A stretch of DNA of 8,172 bases, from positions 1 to 8,172 of the forward strand of contig CAMJTZ010000080.1 in NCBI GenBank assembly GCA_946408865.1, written 5' to 3'. The position numbers were made by a program, and so were the translations under genes. The DNA is from an uncultured Clostridia bacterium (GTDB lineage Bacteria > Bacillota_A > Clostridia > Christensenellales > Aristaeellaceae). Under the pieces are notes generated by a model. It saw only the letters and a program-made list of their open reading frames with translations, searched no databases and was not told where the DNA came from. Positions 148 to 7,829 of this stretch are shown piece by piece (within the stretch, counting starts at the first letter, position 1; the number at the start of each line of letters is the position of its first letter).

Positions 148-262
<115 letters not shown>

Positions 263-263
<1 letters not shown>

Positions 264-308
264 TTCCATAGAAAACTCTGTCGAAAGACAGAGTTTTTCT
301 TATGGAAT
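263..308 (+). terminator. rRNA operon terminator T1
   Basis: An 11-bp stem (272-282 AAAACTCTGTC with 287-297 GACAGAGTTTT) closes on a GAAA tetraloop and runs into a T tract, the classic intrinsic terminator form. The flanks also pair exactly: ATTCCATA at 263-270 with TATGGAAT at 301-308, giving a long two-part hairpin that starts at the last base of the 5S gene. It terminates the rRNA transcript rightward. The A run on the left side of the stem could also give weak termination leftward. Confidence 0.88.
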
Positions 309-322
309 CTCAGCGGCGCGCC

Positions 323-425
323 GTCCGCAGCCGCAATAGTCGCAACTCCCCGCAGGGGAGCTTGCTTCTTTGCGGCTGATCTCAGAACCGATGAGATTTC
401 CGCCACCGGCGGTCATCGGTTCTTC
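323..425. repeat. Structured unit, copy 1 (two hairpins)
   Basis: Hairpin 1a has an outer 9-bp stem, CAGCCGCAA 328-336 with TTGCGGCTG 370-378. Its inner stem is GCAA 342-345 with TTGC 362-365, continued by CTCCCC 346-351 with GGGGAG 355-360, with C361 bulged and a 3-nt loop GCA. Hairpin 1b has an 11-bp outer stem, AGAACCGATGA 384-394 with TCATCGGTTCT 413-423. It has a one-sided GATTT bulge at 395-399, an inner stem CCGCC 400-404 with GGCGG 408-412, and loop ACC. Confidence 0.75.
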
Positions 426-526
426 GTCCGCATCCTCAATCTACGCGACTGCCACCGGGCAGATCGCTTGTTTCGGATGACCTCAGCCCTGATGAAATAT
501 CTGCCACTGGCAGTCATCAGGGCTTC
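426..526. repeat. Structured unit, copy 2 (two hairpins)
   Basis: Hairpin 2a has a shorter outer stem, CATCC 431-435 with GGATG 475-479. Its inner stem is GCGA 445-448 with TCGC 464-467, continued by CTGCC 449-453 with GGCAG 458-462, with A463 bulged where copy 1 has bulged C361. Hairpin 2b has an 11-bp outer stem, AGCCCTGATGA 485-495 with TCATCAGGGCT 514-524. It has a one-sided AATAT bulge at 496-500, an inner stem CTGCC 501-505 with GGCAG 509-513, and loop ACT. Hairpins 1b and 2b align without gaps over 44 positions. Confidence 0.75.
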
Positions 527-539
527 GCCCGGATTCCAT

Positions 540-570
540 AAAAAGCTCCGCCTGATGGCGGAGTTTTTTT
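540..570. terminator. Bidirectional terminator T2 between converging transcripts
   Basis: A 7-bp GC-rich stem, CTCCGCC 546-552 with GGCGGAG 557-563, has loop TGAT, a run of seven T on the plus strand (564-570) and a run of five A (540-544) on the left that becomes a T run on the minus strand. It can therefore stop rightward transcription from the rRNA side and leftward transcription from the YhhN-family gene ending at 594. It is preceded by CCGGATTCCATA at 529-540, the same 12 bases that precede T1 at 259-270. Confidence 0.85.
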
Positions 571-593
571 ATGGGAGCGAAAGGGGAAATATA

Positions 594-5361: not shown

Positions 5362-6687
5362 ATGGATCTGGAATCACTGTGGAAGTCTGCCTGCATGCTG
5401 ATGGAAAAGAAAATGAATTATCTTGCATACACCACCTGGGTTCAGGACAATCTGTATCCGGTCGTGCTGGAAGATGATACACTGATCATCGGCGCCAAGA
5501 TGGAGCCGTTGATTCCCATGATTCAGAAAAAATACCTCTCTATCATCGAGAATTGCCTGAGTGAAAGCGAAGGAAAAGCGCTCAAGGCCCTGATCCTCGG
5601 AAAGAATGAAGCGGATCACCGTCTGACAAAAACAAACAAAAGCGGAGGGGACGATACGGATCCGCATCTGAATCCCAAATATACGATTAATTCTTTTATT
5701 GTAGGAGACAACAACCGCTTTGCCCGCGCAGCGGCACTGGCTGCTGCGGAATCGCCCGGAGATGTTTATAATCCGCTGTTTATCTACGGCGGGGTGGGCC
5801 TTGGGAAAACCCACCTGATGCAGGCAATCGGCAACTACGTGCATGAGAACAATCCGGAAAAGCGGATTCTCTACATGACGAGCGAAACGTTCATGAATGA
5901 GATGATCAACGCGATCCAGCAGAAGAGCACCTATGAATTCCGTGCGAAACTCCGGATGGTGGATGTGCTGCTGGTGGATGACATCCAGTTCATTGCCGGC
6001 CGGGAAGCGACACAGCAGGAGTTTTTCAATACGTTCAATGAACTGCACAATGAAAACAAGCAGATCGTCCTGACCAGCGACAAACCGCCCAAAGATATTC
6101 AGCGTCTGGAAGAACGGCTGTGCTCGCGGTTCGAGTGGGGTCTGGTGGCAGATATTCAGGCGCCGGATGAAGAGACCCGCAACGCGATTCTGCGCGAAAA
6201 AGTGAGACAGGAAAAATTTGAAGTTCCGGATGAAGTTATATCCATGATCGCCAGGGAGATCAAAAGCAATGTCCGCGAACTCGAAGGATGCCTGACCCGG
6301 CTTGTCGCATATTCCAATATGACGCAGCAACCGATTACGCTGGAGCTGAGCCAGACTGCTCTGAAGGAAATCATCGACAGCAGGAAAGTAAAGATTATTA
6401 CGGCAGAGATGATCATGCAGAGCGTCAGCGATTACTACAATGTTACGCTGAGTGAGATGGTGGGGCCGACCCGGAAACGCGAGATAACAATCCCACGTCA
6501 GGTTGCCATTTATCTGACACGGGAAATGACCGGCATGAGTCTGCCGCAGATCGGAACGGTCTTCGGAGGACGGGATCACACAACGATTCTGCACAGCTGC
6601 AAGGTGATGGAAAATACCGTTCGGGACGATCCCGGCATGAGGAACCTGGTGAATTCCATCAAACGGCAGATCGAGAGCGCACGGTGA
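5362..6687 (+). CDS. dnaA: Chromosomal replication initiator protein DnaA
   Basis: This 441-aa AAA+ ATPase binds DnaA boxes, melts the origin and loads the helicase. Domain I is at about 1-75 (MDLESLWKSA through WVQDNLYPV), domain II is a short linker at about 76-107, domain III follows, and domain IV is at about 345-441. Visible motifs are Walker A GGVGLGKTHL (143-152), Walker B LLVDDIQF (203-210), the box VII region RLCSRFEWGL (252-261) with the arginine finger, sensor II NVRELEGCLTRL (303-314), and the DNA-binding signature RQVAIYLTREMTG (379-391) with GGRDHTTILH (402-411). All look intact. The start at 5362 is preferred over an in-frame GTG at 5317 because domain I begins there and a G-rich site (GGGGG near 5350) precedes it. 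It is followed by its own terminator and then pheS; dnaN, the usual next gene, is missing. DnaA boxes upstream suggest autoregulation. Confidence 0.97.
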   Translation: MDLESLWKSACMLMEKKMNYLAYTTWVQDNLYPVVLEDDTLIIGAKMEPLIPMIQKKYLSIIENCLSESEGKALKALILGKNEADHRLTKTNKSGGDDTDPHLNPKYTINSFIVGDNNRFARAAALAAAESPGDVYNPLFIYGGVGLGKTHLMQAIGNYVHENNPEKRILYMTSETFMNEMINAIQQKSTYEFRAKLRMVDVLLVDDIQFIAGREATQQEFFNTFNELHNENKQIVLTSDKPPKDIQRLEERLCSRFEWGLVADIQAPDEETRNAILREKVRQEKFEVPDEVISMIAREIKSNVRELEGCLTRLVAYSNMTQQPITLELSQTALKEIIDSRKVKIITAEMIMQSVSDYYNVTLSEMVGPTRKREITIPRQVAIYLTREMTGMSLPQIGTVFGGRDHTTILHSCKVMENTVRDDPGMRNLVNSIKRQIESAR

Positions 6688-6720
6688 TTCAGCGATCCGC
6701 AAACGGAAATCAGCTATCAG

Positions 6721-6747
6721 GAAGGAACGTGAAGACGTTCCTTTTTT
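6721..6747 (+). terminator. Intrinsic terminator after dnaA
   Basis: A 9-bp stem, AAGGAACGT 6722-6730 with ACGTTCCTT 6735-6743, has loop GAAG and runs into a T tract ending at 6747. It lies 34 bp after the dnaA stop, making dnaA a single-gene transcript separated from pheST. Confidence 0.88.
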
Positions 6748-6749
6748 CT

Positions 6750-6778
6750 TTGCATTCAGAAGTTCTGCGTGATATAAT
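6750..6778 (+). promoter_or_regulatory. Promoter of pheST
   Basis: TTGCAT (6750-6755) and a perfect TATAAT (6773-6778) are separated by 17 bp, with TGA before the -10 making a perfect extended -10 (TGnTATAAT). The predicted start near 6785 leaves a leader of only about 28 nt before the pheS ATG. That is too short for the T-box riboswitch that often controls pheST in Firmicutes. Confidence 0.78.
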
Positions 6779-6812
6779 ATAATTTAGTATTTTCAGGCAG
6801 GAGTGAGCAATC

Positions 6813-7829
6813 ATGGAGCAAAGGATCAACGCGCTTCGCGAGGCAATGAAGCAGCAGATCGGACAGATCAATTCCAAGGAAAAACTGGCTGCTTTCTGGC
6901 AGGAATTCCTGGGCAAGAAGGGAAGCATTGCAGATCTGATGAAAGGCCTCGGAACGGTTGCCAAGGAAGACCGGCCGGCCATGGGCAAGGTTATCAATGA
7001 CTTCAAGGTCCAGGTGGAAGAACAGTACAGAATCATGAGCGAAAAGATGGAGCAGATGGAGCTGCAGGCGCGCAACCGCCTGGAAGCAGTGGATATCACG
7101 CTCCCTGCGAAAAAGTATCCGCAGGGACATCTGCATCCGCTGACGCTGGTCCGGAATGAAATGATCAATGTGTTTGCCGGTATGGGATTTGATGTGTTCG
7201 AAGGTCCCGAGATCGAGGATGACGATCATAACTTTACCCGGCTGAATGTTCCGAAGGATCATCCTTCCCGGGATATGCAGGATACCTTCTACCTCGACAA
7301 CGACTGGCTTCTGCGCACCCAGACGAGCGGCGGACAAATCCGCGTGATGGACGCACAGAAACCGCCGATCAAGGTACTGGTACCCGGGCGCGTGTTCCGC
7401 TCCGACAGCGACGCCACCCATTCCCCGATGTTCCATCAGATGGAAGGGCTTGTGGTGGACAAGGGAATCACGCTGTGCGATCTGCAGGGCATGCTGGACA
7501 AGTTTGTGCAGCAGCTGTTTGACGCCAGTGTCCGTACGCGGCTCCGGCCCAGCTATTTCCCGTTTACAGAACCCAGCGTGGAGGTGGATGTAAGCTGCTT
7601 TGAGTGCGCCGGCAAGGGATGCTCCCTGTGCAAGCACACCGGCTGGATTGAAGTGCTGGGCGGCGGTGTCGTACATCCCAAAGTGCTGGAAAACTGCGGG
7701 ATCGATTCCTCGGTATATTCCGGCATTGCATTTGGCATCGGCATTGAGCGGATTGCCATGCTGAAATACGGTATCAACAATATCGGCCTGCTGTTTGAGA
7801 ACGATCTTCGTTTCCTGAAGCAGTTCTGA
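6813..7829 (+). CDS. pheS: Phenylalanine--tRNA ligase alpha subunit
   Basis: This 338-aa class II aminoacyl-tRNA synthetase subunit is the catalytic half of the cytosolic alpha2-beta2 enzyme that charges tRNA-Phe. It has an N-terminal coiled-coil arm (about 1-90) that contacts tRNA, then the catalytic domain. Motif 1 is around [28 protein letters not shown] (split around 108-135), with DMQDTFYL (154-161) and LRTQTS (167-172). Motif 2 is [21 protein letters not shown] (around 192-212), and the Phe pocket region includes [18 protein letters not shown] (243-260). Motif 3 is [17 protein letters not shown] (304-320). Cysteines 262, 265, 270 and 273 form a CxxC-CxxC cluster as in many Firmicutes PheS. 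AGGAG lies 9 nt before the ATG. pheT follows after 19 bp. Confidence 0.98.

Follow-up and report, generated by a model that had tools for sequence, protein, structure and literature searches.

A tandem pair of structured sequences downstream of a 5S rRNA gene, in which paired positions change together from one copy to the other, could be a maintained RNA linked to the rRNA operon, or two copies of a repeat that is scattered over the genome. We addressed this question for a pair from an uncultured Clostridia bacterium, the window being the whole analysed stretch of 8,172 nucleotides (contig CAMJTZ010000080.1, forward strand). The feature is probably a double-hairpin DNA repeat of about 105 bp, present twice in tandem, of a kind that is dispersed, mobile and non-autonomous.

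The tandem pair and its surroundings

The window starts with the end of a 23S gene (assigned by eye), followed by the 5S rRNA gene (148..264, plus strand; Rfam RF00001, 102.8 bits) and then by the pair of ~105-nt repeats. An extended terminator hairpin, T1, lies 3' of the 5S gene (~260..310, plus strand; fold z = -7.9; inverted repeat 262-275/296-309), and a second one, T2 (532..577, no strand assigned; fold z = -5.3), separates the pair from a yhhN-family gene. The program-made list has no ORF of at least 80 aa before position 594, so the placement between the rRNA terminator and a second terminator, without an ORF, is as originally described. Both copies are enclosed by the arms of an inverted repeat (left arm 297..309, partner 532-544; 92% complementary). 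The protein domains found 3' of the pair are YhhN, FTSW_RODA_SPOVE, FHA, ZnuA, DnaA and phenylalanyl-tRNA synthetase; dnaA and then pheS occupy positions 5362-7829, the rRNA operon being ~5 kb upstream. The sequence of the 5S end, CCGGATTCCATA, is repeated directly at 259-271 and, 5' of T2, at 529-541, and the 3' arm of T1 extends into a nearly identical inverted version of the 3' end of 5S (~301-322, by eye).

A covariance model, R1, was derived from an alignment of 30 copies made without regard to structure (A1). It places copy 1 at 323..428 (107.8 bits) and copy 2 at 426..530 (117.4 bits), both on the plus strand. The score of copy 1 comes from a separate search without filters; this copy is missing from the whole-window listing, presumably owing to the overlap of its 3' end with copy 2. 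Each copy folds into two hairpins as drawn in the original prediction: hairpins 1a (328-378) and 1b (384-423) in copy 1, and hairpins 2a (consensus outer stem 431-435/475-479, inner stem 445-453/458-467) and 2b (485-524) in copy 2. The outer stem of hairpin 2a given here is that of the consensus; the minimum-energy structure of copy 2, folded alone, has a different one. As RNA, the copies have z = -7.0 and z = -5.7, respectively, against dinucleotide shuffles, none of 200 shuffles being equally stable, and the DNA folds are stable for both strands (z from -4.6 to -8.2).

All the paired changes claimed between the copies can be read from the sequence. In hairpin a these are 330-376 G-C to 433-477 T-A, 344-363 A-T to 447-465 G-C, and 348-358 C-G to 451-460 G-C; in hairpin b, 386-421 and 387-420 A-T to 487-522 and 488-521 C-G, 389-418 C-G to 490-519 T-A, and 401-411 C-G to 502-512 T-A. 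The bulges said to be conserved are likewise present, namely C361/A463 in hairpin a and the one-sided 5-nt bulge of hairpin b (GATTT at 395-399, AATAT at 496-500).

Covariation across the family

The A1 alignment yields a two-hairpin consensus of 106 positions with 31 pairs, 25 of which have changes on both sides. Pairing holds in 97.8% of 928 cells (30 copies), compared to 83.0 +/- 0.7% when partners are shuffled and at most 40.0% when they are slid. The number of further pair types was 38 against 34.2 in the shuffles, a count reached by 34 of 500 shuffles, and kinship among copies inflates tests of this kind. The 5-nt bulge is gap-free in all 30 copies, and the unpaired columns 13-15, 17, 47, 51, 60, 77 and 87 are conserved in 28-30 of them.

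The association of pair types is 0.319 within hairpin b and 0.120 between hairpins b and a, the value within hairpin a being 0.118; the block pattern that these figures suggest is visible for hairpin b alone. A single hairpin-b stem combines with several hairpin-a stems, which suggests that hairpin-b stems are exchanged as blocks. Hence the seven paired changes between the window copies may not be independent, and the four in hairpin b may represent one event. Still, covariation over the whole family stays strong, and thus the fold is under some constraint, either at movement or in transcripts.

The curated Rfam threshold was reached in the window by the 5S gene alone; at a lax threshold, Rfam 15 gave 21 window matches, none of them at cut-off, the best sub-threshold match being Leu_leader (33.7 bits; cut-off 50).

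Dispersal among relatives

Relatives were located via dnaA (best 80 of 297 loci), the top locus, L001, encoding a DnaA 93% identical to that of the window. The searches covered 61 relatives of G001, the genome of this locus. A DNA search with copy 2 had matches at many places in 25 of them. With R1 at E <= 1e-6, 37 of the 61 relatives carried 1-40 copies each, at least 398 in sum; this is a lower bound, since strict filters were used and 64 candidates were scored per genome. Thus, when copies are counted, the family is dispersed, and a single RNA locus finds no support.

In the list of relatives, the 37 carriers come first, and the last 24 rows are without a match; we read the first rows as the nearer relatives, the list itself giving no kinship. 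Three genomes, G009, G026 and G038, have 56, 50 and 46 matches, respectively, at E <= 0.01, in each case on one contig of 3.4-3.6 Mb, and such counts may include copies of a related type. R1 matched none of 49 distant dnaA loci, and of 291 genomes from the class G001 alone gave a match, although this is a weak test (strict filters, 13 candidates scored per genome). Two exact patterns had no match in viral contigs. The element was hence found in one group only, that of related gut and rumen Clostridia.

The 5S flank in syntenic loci

Many contigs of the relatives, like the window, begin at rRNA, roughly 5-10 kb before dnaA, which makes the 5S flank comparable. The 5S gene or its flank is covered by 21 syntenic loci; R1 exceeded 100 bits there in three of them (L001, L022 and L025), in addition to the window. 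When a fragment (L005) and the related, longer repeat type are included, repeats are present at this flank in 11 of the 21 loci. In other loci, for example L009, L015 and L030, the terminator stands alone (by eye), which argues against a fixed gene at this place. In six loci from five low-copy genomes the copies have different neighbours; a universal syntenic copy was not seen in these loci and was therefore rejected.

Near the 5S gene, several loci (L004, L006, L007, L031 and L082) have repeat copies followed by 5S fragments (by eye), and in L025 (542-737) the copy continues into another 5S gene that is partly broken (60.4 bits with Rfam, compared to 103.5 for the first).

Filled and empty sites

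Mobility was assessed in 60 stretches of 20 kb around copies from three genomes, with 74 matches. Two pairs of loci provide the clearest filled and empty sites. Over 400 nt on each side, the flanks of the filled site L228:10001 (G026) and the empty site L235:14253 (G038) are 96% and 97% identical, and 3 nt replace the 107 nt of the copy; for L248:10610 (filled, G038) and L094:1568 (empty, G002) the flanks are 88% and 93% identical, and again 3 nt replace 107. A similar filled/empty comparison can be made inside one genome (L269/L270 and L255:10421). For 16 filled copies, chosen for small gaps, 3 or 4 nt stand in place of the copy, most of the empty partners here being homologous repeats elsewhere and not the same place in a relative.

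Neither of the usual insertion marks was found in 61 contexts. A target site duplication of at least 5 nt occurs in three of them, compared to 9.6% expected from re-paired flanks, and the ends, taken as potential terminal inverted repeats, share a word of 4.4 nt on average (maximum 8), against 5.0 in the internal control.

Near-identical copies recur at equivalent positions within differing wider surroundings. The 10+10 nt next to the junctions are shared in 67 of 2080 copy pairs, and in 28 of these 67 pairs the elements are at least 93% identical while the outer flanks are less than 85% identical. An element without a single difference lies inside hairpin b of two diverged outer copies (L264:16223 and L269:10004).

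One copy, at locus L116 of G017, is situated in frame in a pseudouridine synthase gene (PF00849), and the Pfam domain spans it. The copy is missing from all 11 aligned relatives, and the gene has approximately 49 additional residues relative to L145, 35 of these residues being encoded by the copy. Pfam searches of 10 ORFs spanning copies and of 8 of the 21 such ORFs in the three closely read genomes found a domain across the copy in L116 only; in L130 and L257 the domain lies beside the copy. The domain-less ORFs spanning copies are taken as spurious, although 19 of 21 are on the strand of the copy.

Localization and targets of the copies

In the three genomes, 47 of 68 copies are situated between predicted genes: 14 in the sense and 13 in the antisense orientation to codirectional neighbours, 11 between convergent and nine between divergent genes. 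The other 21 lie in predicted ORFs, 17 of which are shorter than 200 aa and 19 of which are on the same strand. The orientation relative to genes is thus unbiased (14 vs 13). A scattered family of the REP/MITE type, which would speak against an RNA locus, is in kind what we see: dispersed copies, filled and empty sites, and no orientation bias. Of the fold that had been called a maintained RNA, or hairpin DNA, the fold itself stands (97.8% pairing), and the single structured RNA locus that it implied, given this distribution, is unsupported.

Several target cores recur: the TACC bulge in a different hairpin repeat, a core of GGGGCTG/CGTTCTCC, a TCAGGATGACA repeat, and hairpin b of the element's own kind (bulges and loops being assigned by eye). 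Several insertions, read by eye at single sites, fall into a bulge or loop of another repeat. A general preference for sites within hairpins was not significant (61 sites vs 1464 control windows; median 12 vs 10 spanning pairs; p = 0.08). Likeness averages 0.908 between copies that share a target and 0.741 between copies whose targets differ. This would result from a separate target for each subfamily, or from partial joint travel of the element with its host repeat. The identical elements within diverged outer copies favour the former.

The host hairpin repeat with TACC bulges is itself dispersed (GCAGTTGT TACC CAAATC AAA GATTTG G ACAACTGC; L235:14200-14260, L269:290-300, L254:3840-3860). In L217, L226 and L253 the copies have yet another hairpin repeat next to them (core GGGGCTG..CGTTCTCCACTGAAA); by eye, both arms of its second stem are variable as well. 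In four loci picked by eye (L231, L239, L251 and L273) the copies are 25-105 nt downstream of tRNA genes; the tRNA genes upstream of copies in these loci and in L090 and L102 are those for Ala, Met and Arg, and beyond some of these copies, judged by eye, there seems to be an additional 3' piece of a tRNA or an inverted repeat of it.

Possible mechanisms and alternative explanations

If the element is mobile, a trans-acting enzyme would recognise both the double-hairpin fold, formed by single-stranded DNA or by RNA, and the conserved unpaired bases. Such an enzyme would place the element next to CC in a bulge or loop of a different hairpin, with 2-4 target bases replaced. The fold would persist as a substrate for movement and would be tolerated in transcripts, behind stable RNA genes and once in frame in a gene, and the rRNA 3' flank would be a recurrent landing place. 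No mobilising enzyme was found; the Y1 transposase, examined as a partner, is only weakly associated. Two further points weigh against this account: the likeness of targets within a subfamily could partly reflect spread together with the host repeat, and the presence in all the first 37 listed relatives would suit a useful element as well. A broader scheme, in which several two-armed families of this one group of Clostridia insert hairpin into hairpin, each subfamily at its own bulge or loop spot, without target duplication, with modular hairpins and by a structure-reading enzyme or an RNA-based process, is at present rather doubtful.

A maintained non-coding RNA, or a regulatory RNA linked to rRNA, behind the 5S gene would explain the strong covariation, the conserved unpaired bases and the R1 scores above 100 bits behind the 5S gene in the window and three relatives. 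However, such scores at this flank are confined to three of 21 syntenic loci, the six loci of low-copy genomes are situated elsewhere, and copies dispersed in 37 of 61 relatives show no strand bias to genes, which makes such an RNA highly improbable. The second alternative retains movement and ascribes it to a RAYT-like (Y1) transposase acting on a REP/REPIN-like sequence. Y1 genes, with open frames of ~250-340 aa, are present in all three genomes read closely; they occur in 23 of 37 element-bearing genomes and in 6 of 24 others (p = 0.008, uncorrected for kinship), and among the 37 carriers the copy number rises weakly with the number of Y1 genes (rho 0.30, p = 0.07). Yet 14 of the 37 carriers show no Y1 gene, although draft genomes may miss one, the element is ~105 bp long with two unlike hairpins, and no R1 copy, that is, no copy of the window's repeat type, lies within ~1.5 kb on each side of the 30 Y1 loci searched (of 56). 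We consider this variant quite unlikely. The Y1 genes of loci L195-L213, all without an R1 copy, look RAYT-like.

The element could also be neutral hairpin DNA that needs no dedicated enzyme: template-switch correction would keep it palindromic, and ectopic recombination between repeats would spread it. Hairpin-b stems that vary as blocks and pair with different first hairpins would agree with this, as would the short target cores common around copies and the missing target duplication. But all 30 copies have retained the one-sided 5-nt bulge, and 28-30 of them several unpaired bases, features that palindrome correction would tend to erase, and hence this explanation also seems unlikely.

Comparison with known repeats

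No description of the element was recognised in the literature searched, subscription papers being mostly outside its coverage. Classical DNA MITEs have terminal inverted repeats and a target site duplication. The element resembles them in being short, dispersed, recently moved and without a protein of its own, but has neither mark in the 61 contexts. A REP is a single palindrome of 20-40 bp with a GTAG or CGTC tag at one end, and REP copies flank a Y1 transposase gene. The element, in contrast, spans ~105 bp with two unlike hairpins, and the 30 Y1 loci searched have no copy in their vicinity; GTAG occurs in none of the 30 copies and CGTC, anywhere in the copy, in 15. With the REP/RAYT system (PMC3733652) the element shares dispersal and the nature of a bacterial hairpin repeat.

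In form, the element is closest to the CcrM-associated intergenic repeats (CIR) of Caulobacter, dispersed sequences of ~110 bp with two long hairpin arms and a linker (PMC2229807); the arms with a linker, the similar size and the dispersal are common to both. CIR, from another phylum, have GANTC at a terminal loop and were not found within genes (PMC2229807), whereas one copy of the Clostridia element sits within a gene. GANTC is present in 10 of our 30 copies, at columns 24, 66, 76 and 99, and the loops (columns 33-35 and 86-88) are without it. As to gene insertion, the closest are the Rickettsia palindromic elements (RPE), which are 105-150 bp long, dispersed, and inserted in frame into genes (PMC10969869, PMC2229807). 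An RPE is, however, described as one long stem-loop, closed by its two ends, with terminal inverted repeats (PMC10969869, PMC2229807), while here there are two separate arms and no such repeats were found, and L116 is the only gene insertion shown.

In the missing flanking duplication, the element is closest to mitochondrial double-hairpin elements, for which, in Allomyces, such a duplication is likewise missing (PMC2800124). The Allomyces elements and the RHE of sponges also have two hairpins and lie between genes and in rRNA genes, but they are organellar and of unrelated sequence (PMC2800124). The sponge RHE have conserved stems and variable loops (PMC2800124), whereas in the Clostridia element it is the stems that vary, several unpaired bases being conserved. 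For movement of the Allomyces elements an RNA intermediate was suggested (PMC2800124). The Yersinia YPAL/RU-2 sequences are similar in having filled and empty sites and targets at or beside dyad symmetry, but they are 168 bp long and duplicate 3-26 bp of their target (PMC2229807), no such duplication being found here.

Mobile hairpin repeats give the same covariation signal as a cellular RNA, and hence tandem copies that covary strongly and also keep their bulges are not in themselves proof of such an RNA. The movement of hairpin repeats without their own transposase is left open in the available parts of the work on RPE, CIR and the double-hairpin elements; should the target rule prove true, the filled and empty sites of these bacteria would be a natural collection for tracing such movement. 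The covariance model can serve for annotation of the repeat family in rumen Clostridia.

A related longer repeat

A longer repeat, type A, has a similar first hairpin, and a side hairpin replaces the 5-nt bulge. It is also dispersed (six of eight genomes searched), and changes on both sides are seen in 21 of its 25 pairs (24 copies). Type A copies occur behind tRNA genes (L090 and L102) and beside 5S fragments. In L092 (1400-1660) one lies between promoter-like boxes and an apparent 16S rRNA leader (by eye), the locus having no Rfam match, and in L098 (1399-1625) another directly follows a TPP riboswitch aptamer (RF00059, 58.5 bits, 1399-1500).
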